NCBI GenBank assembly: GCA_013001055.1
Contig: JABDNH010000007.1
Coordinates: 175,422 to 239,421, forward strand
Direction of reading: 5' to 3'
Length of the DNA stretch: 64,000 bases
Source: Sphingomonas sp.
GTDB taxonomy: Bacteria > Pseudomonadota > Alphaproteobacteria > Sphingomonadales > Sphingomonadaceae
Shown piece by piece: positions 3,308-14,376 of this stretch. Position 1 is the first letter of the stretch. Each line of letters starts with the position of its first letter. Made by a program: the position numbers and the translations under genes. The notes below the pieces were generated by a model. That model searched no databases. It worked only from the letters and a program-made list of their open reading frames with translations, and was not told the DNA's origin.

Positions 3308-3391
3308 TGAATCTGGTGTTGGCTCGGCCTCTAGCGAATGGCGCCGCCCATCGCAATTGAACCATTTGGCCAGATTGGCCCACTATAGGGC

Positions 3392-3940
3392 ATGAAAAAA
3401 GGGGCAAACCGCGACAAGACACAGGCGCTGACCGCCTACCTGGTGGTCGCGGCGCGCGATGGGAATCGCGGCGCGCTCGGTGACCTGGTGCGTCTCTGGC
3501 ACCCGCGTTTCATCGCCCATGGCTGGCGGTTGACCGGGCGCCGCGAGGCTGCCGAGGATGCGGTGCAATCGGCGTGGCGCGATATCGTGCGCGGCATTGC
3601 AAAGTTGCGCGATGAAAGCGCTTTTGCCCCCTGGGCGTACCGAATCGTGACACGCGCCGCCAAGCGCCAGGCCGGACGCGAGTTGCCGGCCGCCTCCCCC
3701 GATACCGAGATCGAGGACGATCGCGATGGACCGGAGGAGGCCAGTCGACACGCCGAATTGCGCTGCGCCATCCGCGCGCTTCCCGCCGGCCAGCGCGCCG
3801 CCATCGCGCTGCACTATTTCGAGGGCCTGACCGTGGCCGAGACCGCAGTCGCCCTCTCGATTCCCGCAGGAACTGCCAAGACCCGACTCATGCATGCGCG
3901 CGCCAAGTTGCGTGCTTTTTACGAAGGAGACGAGAAATGA
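3392..3940 (+). CDS. ECF-type RNA polymerase sigma factor
   Basis: Sigma-70 region 2 (AAEDAVQSAWRDIVRGIAKLRDESAFAPWAYRIVTRAAKR) and region 4 (LPAGQRAAIALHYFEGLTVAETAVALSIPAGTAKTRLMHARAKLR). Confidence 0.9.
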   Translation: MKKGANRDKTQALTAYLVVAARDGNRGALGDLVRLWHPRFIAHGWRLTGRREAAEDAVQSAWRDIVRGIAKLRDESAFAPWAYRIVTRAAKRQAGRELPAASPDTEIEDDRDGPEEASRHAELRCAIRALPAGQRAAIALHYFEGLTVAETAVALSIPAGTAKTRLMHARAKLRAFYEGDEK

Positions 3941-4305
3941 GCGATATCGACAAGCTGATCGATGACGCGCTCGATGCCGAAGAGCGCGACCTGATGCACC
4001 GTATCGGCGATGAACCTGACTATTTCACCCAAGTCTTCGGTATCTTCCGCGGGAAGACCGGATGGGCATCGGTTGTGCTGGTCGTTGTCCAGCTGCTGAT
4101 GTTCATCGCCGGGGTGTGGATGGCGCTGCGTTTCTTCGACGCCACGAGCCCGCTCGAAGCGCTGCGATGGGGGCTGCCGGCAGCGACGCTAATCCTCATG
4201 GCGCTGATCGTGAAGATGGCCTTCTGGCCACAAATCCACATCCAGCGCCTGTCACAGGAGCTCAAACGGGTCGAACTTCAGCTTGTGCGCTTGCGGAAAG
4301 ACTAG
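3937..4305 (+). CDS. DUF6768-like two-TM membrane protein, translationally coupled to the ECF sigma factor
   Basis: ATGA overlap with sigma gene; soluble N-terminus and two TM helices (WASVVLVVVQLLMFIAGVWMALRFF, LRWGLPAATLILMALIVKMAFW). Confidence 0.65.
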   Translation: MSDIDKLIDDALDAEERDLMHRIGDEPDYFTQVFGIFRGKTGWASVVLVVVQLLMFIAGVWMALRFFDATSPLEALRWGLPAATLILMALIVKMAFWPQIHIQRLSQELKRVELQLVRLRKD

Positions 4306-4838
4306 TTCGAGGCGCCGACTGTGACGATACGAAAATCGGTCGGGCGCGGGCCTGTCGTCACCATCTGGACGGCGGGTCGCGTCTCGGTCGGGTCCGGATC
4401 GATGGCAAAGCCATTGCCGAACGCGAAATGGCTGTGATCGCCTTCGTTGAGGCTTTCGACCAACCGGAAGCCGGCGGCGCGGAAGGCGCGGTCGACCTGG
4501 CGATGTGACACGCCGGGGCGCAAAACGACATCGATCGCGCGGTTGCGCAGGTGGTAGCTGTTGCGCGCGCCGCCGACGCGTCGATTATGCGCAGGGCTAC
4601 GGAAAGTCGACGTCACCCGCCCATACTGGCGCGCGATCGAAACGGCGCCATCGATCTCGAATGCGGCGTCGCGCATCGGTGTCACGATCTTGAGATTGCT
4701 GTCGGTCATGCGCCCGCCATCGACGGTCCGGATGCCGAAATCTGTCGACCGCTGCGTCGGCGCTTCCTGCGCCACTGCCGAACCGGCAACGCCAACAGTC
4801 GCTATGATCGCGAGAATCGCGCGCATATTCCCCTCCAC
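4302..4838 (-). CDS. secreted peptidase M15-like (D-Ala-D-Ala carboxypeptidase fold) protein
   Basis: Signal peptide MRAILAIIATVGVAGSAVAQ; SFRSPAHNRRVGGARNSYHLRNRAIDVVL and EGDHSHFAF motifs typical of peptidase_M15_3. Confidence 0.7.
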   Translation of the reverse strand: MEGNMRAILAIIATVGVAGSAVAQEAPTQRSTDFGIRTVDGGRMTDSNLKIVTPMRDAAFEIDGAVSIARQYGRVTSTFRSPAHNRRVGGARNSYHLRNRAIDVVLRPGVSHRQVDRAFRAAGFRLVESLNEGDHSHFAFGNGFAIDPDPTETRPAVQMVTTGPRPTDFRIVTVGASN

Positions 4839-4885
4839 TGTGTGGAGCTCTGTATAATATAAGTTAACCGATTCGGGAAACCCCG

Positions 4886-6022
4886 TCAGCCCACCAGTGT
4901 CCCGTTAAGGGCCAAGGGAGCCGTTTCGGGGAAGAGAATGCTTCCCACCCGCCGCGGATCGAGATCGAAATGCTGGCCAATTGCAGTCGTGGCCAACGCG
5001 TCGAATCCGGTCGTCGGCAGCACGTCGCGATCCTGGTAAAGCCGCGACAGGCCGGGCCAGTTGCCGCCCACGCGGCCACCCCTAACGCCGCCGCCCAGCA
5101 GCATCGCGAGCGCGCCGGTACCATGATCAGTCCCATTGGTACCGTTCAAGGCGGCTGTCCGCCCGAATTCGGTGGCGACCATCACCAGCGTGTCGGTCCA
5201 CTCCGCGCCAAGGCCAGCCTGCAGCGCGCCGATCAGCGAATCGATCTGACCCAACTGGCCATTGAGACGACCAGGCTGCGCGAAATGCGTGTCCCAGCCA
5301 TCGCTTTCGATCATCAGCACCTTCGCGCCATCCGGGCCTGCCAGCATGCGCGCCGCCAGTTCGCCCAGCGCAGCGCCATTGCGCGCTGCAGAGGCATCCC
5401 CCGCCATTTCGCGCGCCATCTGCGCCTCAGCCCAAAGCGGCCCCAGCTGTGCGTCTTCGGCATAAAGGCTGCCGATCCGGCTCATCAGGTCGTAGCTGGC
5501 ATCAGGCAGGCGTGAGGGTGCATAGCTTGCTACCGGCACGTCGCCGCGCAGTGCCAGCGGCACGGTGGGCGCCAACGCAAGCCCGCGTCCGCCCAGCAGG
5601 CCCACGGTTCGGTTCAGCCAGCCATCCTTCAATTGGTAGGCCTTGGCACCGCCCGTCTCGATGACGTTCTGGGCATCGAAGTGCGACCGGTCGCGATACG
5701 GCGTGGCCACTGCCGGTATGAACAGCGCTTGTCCGGCATCGCTGAGCGCGGCGACATTCGTCATCGCTTCATGGAGCCGGAAGTTGCCATCGACCTTGTG
5801 ACCCGCCATCGCGGCTTCGCCTTGCTCTCGTCGCAAGGCCGTCCAGCGCGGATCGGTCACCGGTGCCAGCGTGGCAAGGCCGTCGGCGGCACCGCGTTGC
5901 AGGATGAAGACAAATCGCTTGTGGGTGTCGGCGTTGGCGCTGCCGGCTACGGCGAGGCCCGGCACAGCAAATGCTCCAAGCCCGACAGCCCCGCTCTTGA
6001 GTATCGTTCTACGATTAAACAT
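4886..6022 (-). CDS. DUF1501 domain-containing protein (Tat-like signal)
   Basis: MFNRRTILKSGAVGLGAFAVPGLAVAG leader; FVFILQRGAADGL, DGWDTHFAQ, VMVATEFGRTAALNGTNGTDHGTGALAMLLGGGVRGGRVGG are DUF1501 hallmarks; start moved to 6022. Confidence 0.85.
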   Translation of the reverse strand: MFNRRTILKSGAVGLGAFAVPGLAVAGSANADTHKRFVFILQRGAADGLATLAPVTDPRWTALRREQGEAAMAGHKVDGNFRLHEAMTNVAALSDAGQALFIPAVATPYRDRSHFDAQNVIETGGAKAYQLKDGWLNRTVGLLGGRGLALAPTVPLALRGDVPVASYAPSRLPDASYDLMSRIGSLYAEDAQLGPLWAEAQMAREMAGDASAARNGAALGELAARMLAGPDGAKVLMIESDGWDTHFAQPGRLNGQLGQIDSLIGALQAGLGAEWTDTLVMVATEFGRTAALNGTNGTDHGTGALAMLLGGGVRGGRVGGNWPGLSRLYQDRDVLPTTGFDALATTAIGQHFDLDPRRVGSILFPETAPLALNGTLVG

Positions 6023-9809: not shown

Positions 9810-11438
9810 TTACAGTTCTTCGATCTTCAATCGCGCCGGGTTTCGCTGCCATGCAAAACTGTCGACGCCCTGCGCTTTGAGCTTGTTGACCATCTCCTGC
9901 GCCTGCGCGCGGTTATCGAACGGACCAACCAGCAGCCGGAAGAATTCGACGCCTTGCGTCACGTGCCCCTTTTGCCCGTCGAGCGCGCCATTGGCAGCGC
10001 GGCGGAGGCGACGCCATTCATAGGACATTGCATCCTGACGGCCACCCGCAAGCTGCACCCAATGCGTGCCCGTGACGCCGATGTCAGGCGCGGCGGCACG
10101 CTGCGGCGGCGCGGTCTCGACCTTGGGCTGGGGCGCTGGCGGCGCCTCGTACTTTGGTCGCGGCGCCGGCGGCGGCAGGTTCGATAGCGTTTCGTCGATG
10201 CTGGCCAGACGCGTCTGCTCGGTCCGCGCGTCGGTTTCCAATTCGGGCGGCGTTGCAGGTGGCAGGTCGACCCTGTCGACGCGGCTTTCGCGCGCCGTTT
10301 CGCCCGAAGGCAGGCTGAAGCCGGGCGCTTGGGCCGGTCGTTGAGTCTCATCGCGTTCGCCGAGCGACGGGCGCGGCGCGAGCGCATCGCGCGCGTCGCC
10401 GGGCGCTTCGGGTTTACCCGCATCGGTGATTTCCACCAGCTCGTAACGGCGATCGACCCCGTGCGGCGTCGGGCGTTCGATCGTGATCTCCTTGAAGACA
10501 CGGCGAGGACGCGTCGACGACGATTGCGCAGGTGGATCGCTGCGTTCGGCGGTACGCTCGGGCGCACGCTGCGCACGCGTGGGCGAACTGCGGCGCGGCG
10601 CGGGCGGCGGGGTCGGTGTCGCCTCTGCGACGCGTGTTTGCGTCCGCGGCGGCGTCGGCGGTGTCGTGTTGCCTTGGTCGGCGCTGCGGTCGGCGGTGGT
10701 CGGGAAACGACCCAAATGCACGGCCGCGGCCTTTTGGGCGCTGCCAAGCGAAGGGAGCATGCGCAAGAACGGGTCGATCTGGTCGCCCGTGCCGGGCATG
10801 GCATAGTCGATCGCCCGACGCGCGCCGTCGAGATCGCCGGTCAGTGCGAGCACAAAGGCGCGGCTACGCTGCGCGCCGCTATCACCCTTGTTCAGCAAGG
10901 GTTGGAGAAAGGCGATCGCGGCGGTGCGTTCGCCTTGCATGGCAAGGTTCAGCGCCAAGCGACGCCGCGCGTCAGCATCGCGTTCGCGGCCAAGGCCCGC
11001 GCGATACTCCGCTTCGGCGGCTTTCAGATTGCCCCGAAGGTCGTAGGCTAACCCGCGATCGACGCCGAATTGCGACGGTGTGCCACCTCGTTCTTCAGCA
11101 GCAGCAAAATAGGCCAGCGCGCGTTCGGCTTCACCAGCCTGCGCCATAGCGGCGCCCATGCCGGCCTGGGGCCTTGGATCATCGGGCCTGAGATCAGCAG
11201 CGCGGCCGAAAAAGCCGCCCGCAGCCTGTAGGTCGCCCAGCGTCACCGACGCCTGACCAGCCTTCATCAACGCATCGAAATCGCGCGGATTGGATGCAAG
11301 CACCTGCAGCGCTTCCTTCAGCGCATCAGGCGCAGTCTGCTGTGCGAGGGTTGCAGCTGCGGGGACAGAAAAAGTCGTGGCCGGAAGAAGCGCGGCCAGC
11401 GCGGCTCCGGCAAGGGATGGGAAGATTAATCTATGCAT
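9810..11438 (-). CDS. TPR and SPOR domain-containing secreted protein
   Basis: Signal peptide MHRLIFPSLAGAALAALLPATTFSVPAAA; TPR-like N-terminal half; C-terminal THWVQLAGGRQDAMSYEWRRL...LLVGPFDNRAQAQEMVNKLKAQGVDSF SPOR domain. Confidence 0.78.
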   Translation of the reverse strand: MHRLIFPSLAGAALAALLPATTFSVPAAATLAQQTAPDALKEALQVLASNPRDFDALMKAGQASVTLGDLQAAGGFFGRAADLRPDDPRPQAGMGAAMAQAGEAERALAYFAAAEERGGTPSQFGVDRGLAYDLRGNLKAAEAEYRAGLGRERDADARRRLALNLAMQGERTAAIAFLQPLLNKGDSGAQRSRAFVLALTGDLDGARRAIDYAMPGTGDQIDPFLRMLPSLGSAQKAAAVHLGRFPTTADRSADQGNTTPPTPPRTQTRVAEATPTPPPAPRRSSPTRAQRAPERTAERSDPPAQSSSTRPRRVFKEITIERPTPHGVDRRYELVEITDAGKPEAPGDARDALAPRPSLGERDETQRPAQAPGFSLPSGETARESRVDRVDLPPATPPELETDARTEQTRLASIDETLSNLPPPAPRPKYEAPPAPQPKVETAPPQRAAAPDIGVTGTHWVQLAGGRQDAMSYEWRRLRRAANGALDGQKGHVTQGVEFFRLLVGPFDNRAQAQEMVNKLKAQGVDSFAWQRNPARLKIEEL

Positions 11439-11543: not shown

Positions 11544-12977
11544 CTACTGGTTATTCTGTCGATTAAGAAAGCTTGGAATATCAATTGGTTCGCGGCGGAA
11601 ACCAGGCCCATCGGTGGCACCCGATTCGGTTTCGTCCGCGCCCTTGGCGATATTGCTCATCCGCTCGAACAAAGTGCCACCTGAGGCGGCGCCAGCGGCG
11701 GGCTCTTCAGCCGTAACTCCACCCTCGGCGTCGTCTTCGTCCGGCAGGTCGTCGGCTTCCGGTGCAATGAAGGGCGGCTTGCTGACCGGCGGGGTCAGCA
11801 CGTCCTCATTGTCGAGCACCAGTTCATCAGCTTCGTCTTCAGCCGTCAGGTCGAGAATTTCCTCTTCCTCATTGGCCGTTTCGGGGACGCTGACCTGTGT
11901 CGGCGTGTCGTCGATTCCGGCGGGCGCCGTCTTGGGCGTCGGGAAGGTAAAGACCTTGCCCGGCTGCGATGCTGCAGTGGTCGTTGCCGCGGGCTTGTGC
12001 ATGGCCGCCTCTTCGCCATCTATACCCGTCGCCACCACGCTGACGCGGATCTGGCCTTCCATGTCCTGGTTGAACGCGCTGCCCCAGATGATGTTGGCGT
12101 CGTCGTCGACCAATTCCTTGATGTGGCTGGCGGCCTCGTCGACCTCCATCAGCTTCATGTCTTCGCCGCCAACGATCGAGATGATGACGCCCTTCGCGCC
12201 CTTCATGCTGACGCCGTCGAGCAGCGGGTTCGAGATGGCCTTTTCGGCGGCTTCGATGGCGCGATTGTCGCCCGAGGCCTCGCCCGTGCCCATCATTGCC
12301 TTGCCCATTTCGCCCATGACCGAACGAACATCGGCAAAGTCGAGGTTGATGAGACCCGGCATGACCATGAGATCGGTGATCCCGCGGACGCCCTGCTTCA
12401 GCACCTCGTCCGCCATTTCGAACGCTTCCTTGAACGTCGTGTCGGCATTGGCGAGACGGAACAGATTCTGGTTCGGAATGACGATCAGCGTGTCGACATG
12501 CTGCTGCAATTCCTCGATGCCCGCGTCAGCCGACCGCATGCGGCGCGATCCTTCGAAGGCAAACGGCTTGGTTACCACGCCGACGGTCAGGATACCCTTG
12601 CCGCGGGCCTGCTTGGCGATGACTGGCGCGGCACCAGTGCCGGTGCCGCCGCCCATGCCGGCCGCGATGAAGCACATGTGCGCGCCTTCGAGCAGCTTGT
12701 CGATTTCCTCGAGCGATTCTTCGGCCGCAGCGCGGCCAATCTCCGGACGCGACCCCGCGCCAAGACCTTGGGTGATCTTGAGACCGAGTTGGACACGGGT
12801 GTCGGCTTCGCTGGCATTGAGCGCCTGCGCGTCGGTATTGGCGACGAGGAATTCGACGCCCTGGACGTCCGCCTGCATCATGTTCGCCACCGCGTTGCCA
12901 CCGGCGCCCCCAACGCCGATCACGCTGATCCTGGGACGAAGCTCGTCCACTTCGGGTCGCATCAGGTCAAAGCTCAT
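11544..12977 (-). CDS. ftsZ: cell division protein FtsZ
   Basis: [36 protein letters not shown] tubulin signature, C-terminal peptide [12 protein letters not shown]. Start set to ATG 12977 with GAGGGG ribosome-binding site upstream. Confidence 0.97.
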
Positions 12978-13006
12978 TGGCAGCCCCTCTTTCATTGCAA
13001 GCGTCT

Positions 13007-13113
13007 GACTCTCTTGGATGAATCTTTGCACAGCACAGACTCTGGCCCAAGGAAAAAATAGTCTGCGCGGGAAAAAAGTGAAGATTTGATTCATATTGGG
13101 ACTCACGTGAGTC
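13007..13113. promoter_or_regulatory. GANTC (CcrM-type methylation site) cluster in ftsA-ftsZ intergenic region
   Basis: Six GANTC sites: 13007 GACTC, 13020 GAATC, 13038 GACTC, 13088 GATTC, 13100 GACTC, 13109 GAGTC; last two form the palindrome GGACTCACGTGAGTCC (13099-13114). Confidence 0.7.
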
Positions 13114-13137
13114 CAATGAGCAACAATTTAACACGGG

Positions 13138-14376
13138 TTAGTAGCCCTCGCGCAACGCCGACACGAGCCGTGACAGCAGTCCGCTACGCGATTTGCGCCG
13201 CGTGATCTCGCCCAGCGCGAGGTCGCCGTCATGCCCGGTGCCGCGCCCGGCGAGCTGCGCCAGCCCCACGAGCGTCGCCGACGCCGGCCCCGCCAACGCG
13301 TCGGGCAGCCCCGCCATCGACTTGGGCTTGCCGAGCCGCACGCTCCGTCCAAGCACGCCTTGCATATAATCGTCGAGATTCTTGAGCTCCGCCCCACCGC
13401 CCGTGATGACGACCTGCCCGCCGACGGGGCCGGAAAAACCGAGCGCCTTCAGAGCCGTATCGACTTCCGTGGCGATTTCCTCGATCCGGCCGCGAATGAC
13501 GGTGACCAACTGCGCGCGGCTGATCTTCTGCGATCCCGCACCGCGTTCCGCGTCGATCATTTCATGATTGTCGCGCGGGCTTTGCATTGCCGACCCGTAG
13601 AAGCACTTCATACGCTCGGCATCGCGGCGCGGCACGCCGAAAGCCATCGCGATGTCCTCGGTAATGTCGCGCGCGCCAAGCGGAATCGACCGCAGGCCCA
13701 CCAGCATCCCGCCAAGGTGTAGAGAGACATTGGTAACGTCCGCGCCCAGTTCGACCAGCGCAACACCCAGATCTTGTTCGTCATCGGTCAACACCGCCGC
13801 GGCCGCCGCCACCGGCGCCGCTACGATCGCACCCACGCCAAGATGCGCTGAACGGATTACGGTATCGAGATTGCGCAGCGGGGCTTCGTCGGCGGCGATC
13901 ACATGGATATCGACCCCCAGCCTGCTGGCATGCAGTCCGCGCGGATTCTTCACGCCCTGCACACCGTCGATCGTGTAAAGTGCGGGATGCGCGTGGAGCA
14001 CGACCTGCCCCTCGCGATCGATCGCGCCGCGCCCGGCATCGAGCAGCTGGCCGATGTCGCTATTCTCGACCGGATGGCCGCCAAGTTCGACTTCGACCGT
14101 GGCAACATCGCTGACCAGTCCGCCCGCGGCAAAGCTCGCCCAGACTTCCTCGACATTGACGCCGCTCATGCGCTCGGCAAGGTCGACGGCTTCGCGCACC
14201 GCCGTTTCGCTCAAATCCATGTCGGTGATATAGCCGCGCTTGACCCCGCGGCCTTCGCGCTGGCCCGAGCCGAGCACTTCGAGGCGGCCGTCATCATGGC
14301 ACCGCACGACCAGCGCGGAGACTTTCGACGACCCGATATCGAGCGCGGCGAAGAGCTGCGCGTCACTGACTGCCAT
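13138..14376 (-). CDS. ftsA: cell division protein FtsA
   Basis: LFAALDIGSSKVSALVVRC, GVKRGYITDMDLSETAVREAV, VVITGGGAELKNLDDYMQGVLGRSVRLGKP. Confidence 0.96.
   Translation of the reverse strand: MAVSDAQLFAALDIGSSKVSALVVRCHDDGRLEVLGSGQREGRGVKRGYITDMDLSETAVREAVDLAERMSGVNVEEVWASFAAGGLVSDVATVEVELGGHPVENSDIGQLLDAGRGAIDREGQVVLHAHPALYTIDGVQGVKNPRGLHASRLGVDIHVIAADEAPLRNLDTVIRSAHLGVGAIVAAPVAAAAAVLTDDEQDLGVALVELGADVTNVSLHLGGMLVGLRSIPLGARDITEDIAMAFGVPRRDAERMKCFYGSAMQSPRDNHEMIDAERGAGSQKISRAQLVTVIRGRIEEIATEVDTALKALGFSGPVGGQVVITGGGAELKNLDDYMQGVLGRSVRLGKPKSMAGLPDALAGPASATLVGLAQLAGRGTGHDGDLALGEITRRKSRSGLLSRLVSALREGY

Follow-up and report, generated by a model that had tools for sequence, protein, structure and literature searches.

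An array of GANTC sites upstream of ftsZ in Sphingomonas suggests multi-site CcrM/GcrA control of a division gene

The locus considered here raises the question of why six GANTC sites should be crowded into the short gap between ftsA and ftsZ in a sphingomonad genome, and whether they place transcription of ftsZ under the control of CcrM methylation. The gap lies within a window of 64,000 bp, the whole stretch of DNA that was analysed. The preliminary description had reported six GANTC sites within 107 bp of a 160-bp gap, and both the site positions and the gene boundaries were confirmed. The sites lie between −136 and −34 relative to the ftsZ ATG, and each starts at the first coordinate of its line below. 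Alignment columns and congener counts refer to an alignment of the 200 bp upstream of ftsZ from 50 genomes of the same genus, the source genome included.

11544..12977, minus strand: ftsZ coding sequence, 477 amino acids, ATG at 12977 (TIGR00065, 417.7 bits against a cut-off of 295.2)
12978..13137, minus strand: ftsA-ftsZ spacer, 160 bp, the putative ftsZ promoter region
13138..14376, minus strand: ftsA coding sequence (TIGR01174, above cut-off), the same-strand upstream neighbour of ftsZ
13109..13113, no strand assigned: distal GANTC site 1, GACTC on the ftsZ strand, −136 from the ATG; alignment column 28, 20/50 congeners
13100..13104, no strand assigned: distal GANTC site 2, GAGTC on the ftsZ strand, −127; alignment column 38, 32/50 congeners
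13088..13092, no strand assigned: distal GANTC site 3, GAATC on the ftsZ strand, −115; alignment column 50, 17/50 congeners
13038..13042, no strand assigned: proximal GANTC site 4, GAGTC on the ftsZ strand, −65; alignment column 104 or 105, 38/50 congeners
13020..13024, no strand assigned: proximal GANTC site 5, GATTC on the ftsZ strand, −47; the most conserved site, 48/50 congeners
13007..13011, no strand assigned: proximal GANTC site 6, GAGTC on the ftsZ strand, −34; alignment column 137, 7/50 congeners in scattered lineages
13099..13114, no strand assigned: 16-bp perfect palindrome GGACTCACGTGAGTCC, containing distal sites 1 and 2, which are 9 bp apart

The exact 16-bp palindrome is not retained in the relatives of the 50-congener alignment. 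The ftsZ start itself (ATGAGC) is kept in the aligned relatives. An in-frame GTG at 13106, from which FtsZ would be extended through the GANTC cluster, was considered as an alternative start and rejected, since relatives keep the ATG at 12977 together with GANTC-bearing DNA upstream of it.

The simplest explanation would be that the cluster is a product of chance or of composition in an AT-rich gap, the G+C content of the spacer being ∼47% as against 63% for the whole window. GANTC is under-represented overall and enriched intergenically throughout the class, with an over-representation of ∼1.5-fold in alphaproteobacterial intergenic DNA (PMC3973325). However, dinucleotide shuffles of the spacer contained a mean of 0.8 GANTC and none of 20,000 reached six, so the cluster is not explained by local AT-richness. 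The motif is also scarce in this genome: the window contains 75 sites, compared with 305 ± 17 in dinucleotide shuffles, and a rate of 1.11 per kb was obtained from a 204-kb sample comprising ∼10% of the genome, the background being drawn from these stretches and from genome-wide pattern searches of the 2.08-Mb assembly. The background of one GANTC per 256 bp assumed in the preliminary description is therefore wrong here, although the error was a conservative one; given the scarcity of the motif, the cluster is more exceptional than had been claimed, and at the measured frequency six sites are far from unremarkable. Under uniform placement of the 75 window sites, six would fall within 107 bp with P ∼1e-5. 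For the genome as a whole, a Poisson calculation predicts 3e-4 clusters of this kind, a figure that rises to 0.07 when the local rate is tripled. No other 160-bp interval in the 204-kb sample contains more than three GANTC, and five other N-centred palindromes reach a maximum of four per 160 bp in the same sample. Across the whole genome, triples of GANTC with gaps of ≤30 bp number 20, versus one for a reversed control pattern, and two separate triples occur at only two places, namely in the ftsZ spacer and upstream of ccrM.

Other local concentrations of the motif were observed. Nine GANTC lie within ∼1.9 kb at window positions 3309-5242, with the next at 10343, which is a looser enrichment against the rate of ∼1.1 per kb. 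Tight clusters of four GANTC at L096:2040-2088 (C21) and L094:2063-2083 (C20) are located at the 3′ end of glpK and within a gene resembling that for the transhydrogenase alpha subunit, and are apparently unrelated to promoters.

The occurrence of the array in relatives was then considered. Between three and six GANTC are present upstream of ftsZ in all 50 congeneric genomes (mean 4.36), amounting to 218 sites compared with 47.6 ± 6.7 in dinucleotide shuffles (n=50), although the genomes are related and the counts hence not independent observations. The control motif CTNAG occurs at 0.22 per sequence in the same 50 regions. An excess that is common to 50 of 50 congeners refutes the explanation by chance or composition, which is scarcely credible. 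Conversely, the array is absent from most of the class: a sample of 40 genomes, 38 of them from other families, contained 32 GANTC against 30.2 expected, i.e. no excess, and in a set of 80 named relatives the mean count declines as FtsZ becomes less identical, from 3.95 to 2.18, 1.12 and 1.00. The flat class sample, set beside the congener excess, indicates that the excess is a property of the clade and not of all Alphaproteobacteria. Within 1.47 Mb of DNA from the ftsZ regions of relatives, all 15 clusters of at least four GANTC per 160 bp are at the ftsZ promoter, with 14 lying wholly upstream of ftsZ and one reaching 50 bp into the gene. Individual site positions move between lineages in the 50-congener alignment while the count stays at three to six. 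Moreover, conservation within the column-104 site is lowest at the central base (identity 0.40, as against 0.64-0.84 for G, A, T and C), as would be expected if the capacity to be methylated were under selection. The behaviour of the N position and the shifting of sites between lineages together argue for continuing selection, more than mere inheritance, as the force that keeps the sites. One record in the comparison, RPSH01000012.1, is titled Bacillus sp. 2B10 but carries the FtsZ locus of a sphingomonad, with 61% identity to the query, and is probably mislabelled or contaminated.

Profile searches revealed homologues of both proteins that a methylation-controlled promoter of the Caulobacter type would require. 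The CcrM homologue has N6_N4_Mtase and RAMA domains and CcrM as its best NCBIfam match, at 624 bits versus an equivalog cut-off of 830; its gene adjoins rnhB, no restriction gene is present among the neighbouring ORFs, and the product is predicted to be a solitary CcrM. The GcrA homologue contains two PF07750 stretches above cut-off (profile positions 1-101 and 90-152), and its best NCBIfam match is GcrA, yet below the equivalog cut-off; it is predicted to have both DNA-binding and sigma-interacting parts. GcrA is known as a sigma70 cofactor that prefers methylated sites and activates methylated promoters (PMC3667746, PMC7403470). The reading to which a probability of about two in three is assigned is that ftsZ has a promoter of its own in the spacer, with an activity governed by several GANTC sites that are methylated by CcrM and read by GcrA.

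The alignment suggests how such a promoter might be laid out. The order in congeners is a distal group of GANTC (−140 to −115), a T tract, CTTG, one or two GANTC, a GATTC found in 48 of the 50, a TTCAACGCGTTG-like element and the start codon. The TTCAACGCGTTG-like element, situated between the start codon and the GATTC that is conserved best, is kept in most congeners but has diverged in this species. Two putative core elements may be placed on the present sequence as follows.

13046..13051, minus strand: −35-like CTTGGG, proposed from the alignment; CTTG is nearly invariant in the genus
13021-13026, minus strand: −10-like AAGATT, proposed; overlapped by GANTC site 5

CTTGGG could serve as the −35 element and AAGATT as the −10 element, with 18 bp separating them when counted from TTGGGC, in which case site 4 lies between them, site 5 over the −10 and site 6 downstream of the promoter. 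Scans of the spacer with an E. coli consensus promoter and for E. coli-type terminators gave no match. At the −10-like GATTC the central base is fixed as T (96% of congeners), and the most conserved site may for this reason persist partly as a −10 element. This, together with the conserved TTCAACGCGTTG element that adjoins it, would fit an alternative in which GANTC is merely a component of the core promoter or of an unrelated regulator's sites and methylation is incidental. However, site positions shift under a stable count and the central base varies at the other sites, the same enrichment is seen at ccrM class-wide, and the spacer contains no match to a full CtrA site, a DnaA box or a LexA site, only TTAA half-sites being found; an incidental role is accordingly judged very unlikely. 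The motif YGAKTCK, preferred by GcrA in Caulobacterales (PMC7987155), has no match in this spacer, and occurs within the last 85 bp before ftsZ in 15 of the 50 congeners.

The ccrM promoter is the only array in this genome that is comparable to that of ftsZ, with seven GANTC in ∼140 bp upstream of the gene. All 27 sphingomonads analysed have between three and 11 GANTC upstream of ccrM (182 versus 39.6 expected), with CTTGAC-N2-5-GANTC in 21 of the 27 and a second GANTC in 19. Adjacent sites there cluster at spacings of 9-11, 18-21 and 28-31 bp, i.e. with peaks near multiples of 10 bp. Across the class, ccrM has a mean of 3.4 GANTC per 300 bp versus 0.63 for the control (27 genomes). As multiple sites at ccrM are class-wide while the ftsZ excess is confined to the clade, multiplicity looks to be old at ccrM and new at ftsZ. 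In relatives the two promoters have a layout in common, in which a −35-like CTTG precedes GANTC sites spaced by roughly one turn of the helix, and CTTG-N3-7-GANTC is found in 34 of the 50 ftsZ promoters, compared with 0.45 expected from shuffles. The composite CTTG-N3-7-GANTC-N4-7-GANTC has only one to six matches per genome (∼40 in 12 relatives), among which ccrM and ftsZ recur; the ftsZ promoter of the present genome misses the composite owing to loss of the middle site. Spacings of 8-10 bp dominate at ftsZ but those of 13-23 bp are also present, and strict helical phasing is not claimed. A conserved distal element was also observed upstream of ccrM (L095:1939-2080; L104-L129), GAGTC-N4-(GAGTC)-ACACCAC...TTGAGTC...GACTCAACAT, which on the opposite strand reads as a CTTG-GANTC-GANTC module.

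The likeness to ccrM bears also on the possibility that the GANTC sites are protected from methylation. MucR can shield GANTC from CcrM (PMC5172544), and MucR, or another AT-preferring regulator, could bind the spacer and maintain a hypomethylated switch that represses ftsZ. A MucR homologue is encoded (PF05443, 177.9 bits), the AT-rich spacer includes a T tract that is conserved, and MucR-shielded promoters in Caulobacter can have several GANTC, as with the four at P169 (PMC5172544). Shielding alone, however, selects no multiplicity of sites, the similarity to the ccrM promoter suggests sites that are methylated instead of shielded, and the proximal sites fall inside the putative core promoter, a position tied to S-phase activation (PMC4287350). 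Repression of this type is considered unlikely.

A further array was observed away from ftsZ, with six GANTC in ∼200 bp between a maf-like gene and hemE (L089:1853-2153, contig C12) and a DnaA-box-like TGTGGATAA. This region is taken here to be a candidate replication origin, by analogy with Caulobacter. In E. coli, dense GATC sites work together with SeqA, and the presence of GANTC arrays at both the candidate origin and ftsZ might point to a similar sequestration or delay device, in which the promoter would be on or off only when newly replicated, timing ftsZ expression to a period after passage of the fork, as at ctrA P1. We know of no SeqA-like reader of hemimethylated GANTC in this group. 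Caulobacter ctrA P1 is active when hemimethylated (reviewed in PMC8116508), but ftsZ in that organism is most active when fully methylated (PMC3708114), and control through the hemimethylated state is an outside possibility, on a par with shielding by MucR.

Methylation read by GcrA is, then, the likeliest basis of the array: a CcrM-methylated promoter activated by GcrA and sigma70 as in Caulobacter, but with multiple sites and grouped with ccrM as opposed to mipZ. Passage of the replication fork through ftsZ would leave the GANTC sites hemimethylated, and late in the cycle CcrM would restore full methylation. GcrA, located on methylated sites around a weak putative core promoter (CTTGGG, 18 bp, AAGATT), would then aid opening by RNA polymerase, and the presence of multiple sites could render its recruitment stronger or more graded than with the single Caulobacter site. 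The array probably represents an amplification of the established bacterial methylation system by which gene expression is tied to DNA replication.

The partners of ftsZ in such a system appear to differ from those in Caulobacter. The genome (2.1 Mb) encodes two strong MipZ/ParA-type proteins, at L290 (C19, a 2833-bp contig) and L291 (C21). The 300 bp upstream of both best MipZ-like genes contain no GANTC, and therefore the Caulobacter pairing of ftsZ with mipZ is not repeated; the gcrA region has one GANTC. The proposal in the preliminary description that ftsZ expression would be timed to the cell cycle by methylation, and so uncoupled from the remaining dcw genes, is partly supported: ccrM and gcrA homologues are present, the GANTC frequency renders the cluster exceptional and close relatives retain it (50/50), the contrary finding on any of these three points having been named beforehand as grounds for abandoning the proposal, but the ftsZ/mipZ pairing expected from Caulobacter is missing. 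A more speculative extension, held to be doubtful, is that ftsZ joined the multi-site methylation module of ccrM in this clade, with FtsZ and CcrM being made together according to how many sites are methylated at their respective promoters. If so, the arrangement would constitute a counting, or ultrasensitive, epigenetic switch linking completion of replication to division, and one rebuilt with new partners, ftsZ and ccrM, compared with ftsZ and mipZ in Caulobacter.

What is known of methylation control at ftsZ comes mainly from Caulobacter, where a single site is involved. A clade with three to six apparently selected sites at ftsZ, in a ccrM-like layout and unlike neighbouring families, offers a natural experiment on what multiplicity confers, be it a threshold, a graded dose or timing. 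The question is directly testable, since several named congeners are cultured, e.g. Sphingomonas sediminicola and Sphingomicrobium lutaoense. GcrA regulons are rewired between clades, in a comparison that included a member of the Sphingomonadales, with ctrA as a predicted target (PMC7987155); the present data would extend the idea of rewiring from Caulobacterales to sphingomonads, with the division genes under GcrA/CcrM control differing between clades. A literature search, thin on subscription papers, found no report of a GANTC cluster at sphingomonad ftsZ.

With respect to known systems, the closest parallel is ftsZ of Caulobacter crescentus, where ftsZ and mipZ are activated when CcrM methylates a single conserved CGACTC motif, full methylation being the most active state (Gonzalez & Collier 2013, PMC3708114). 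That study predicts the link between ftsZ and CcrM for Caulobacterales and Rhodobacterales, and the string 'Sphingomon' is absent from its main text. The present locus resembles the Caulobacter one in having GANTC in the ftsZ promoter region of a genome that encodes ccrM, and 17 of the 50 congeners have a CGACTC within the final 85 bp. It differs in having six sites in two groups, none of which is CGACTC in this species, and in that the MipZ-like genes lack GANTC. Six sites as against one fit the 'much denser version' of the Caulobacter arrangement envisaged at the outset. GcrA-sigma70 promoters such as ctrA P1, mipZ and podJ (PMC3667746, PMC4287350, PMC7403470) have GANTC that falls between the −35 and −10 elements of a weak promoter or overlaps them, as is proposed here in a genome that encodes gcrA, and in Caulobacter GANTC between these elements marks promoters that fire in S phase (PMC4287350). 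However, among 96 Caulobacter cell-cycle start sites with GANTC, a second copy or more in the 50 bp upstream is seen at only 11 (PMC4287350), and the YGAKTCK preference of GcrA in Caulobacterales is not reflected in this spacer. Within the Sphingomonadales, ctrA promoters contain up to five GANTC within 300 bp (PMC8116508), and thus multiple sites at another essential cell-cycle gene in the same order, although that work concerns ctrA and a larger counted region and contains no analysis of ftsZ. The ccrM promoters of Alphaproteobacteria are similar in their multiple GANTC and in the −35-like CTTG followed by sites ∼10-11 bp apart, but their multiplicity is class-wide and, in the ccrM array, the spacing is ∼10-bp periodic, whereas at ftsZ multiplicity is confined to this clade and the spacing is less periodic. 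On this comparison, the best-supported reading is that the sphingomonad ftsZ array represents a new, multi-site variant of the known control of ftsZ by CcrM and GcrA.
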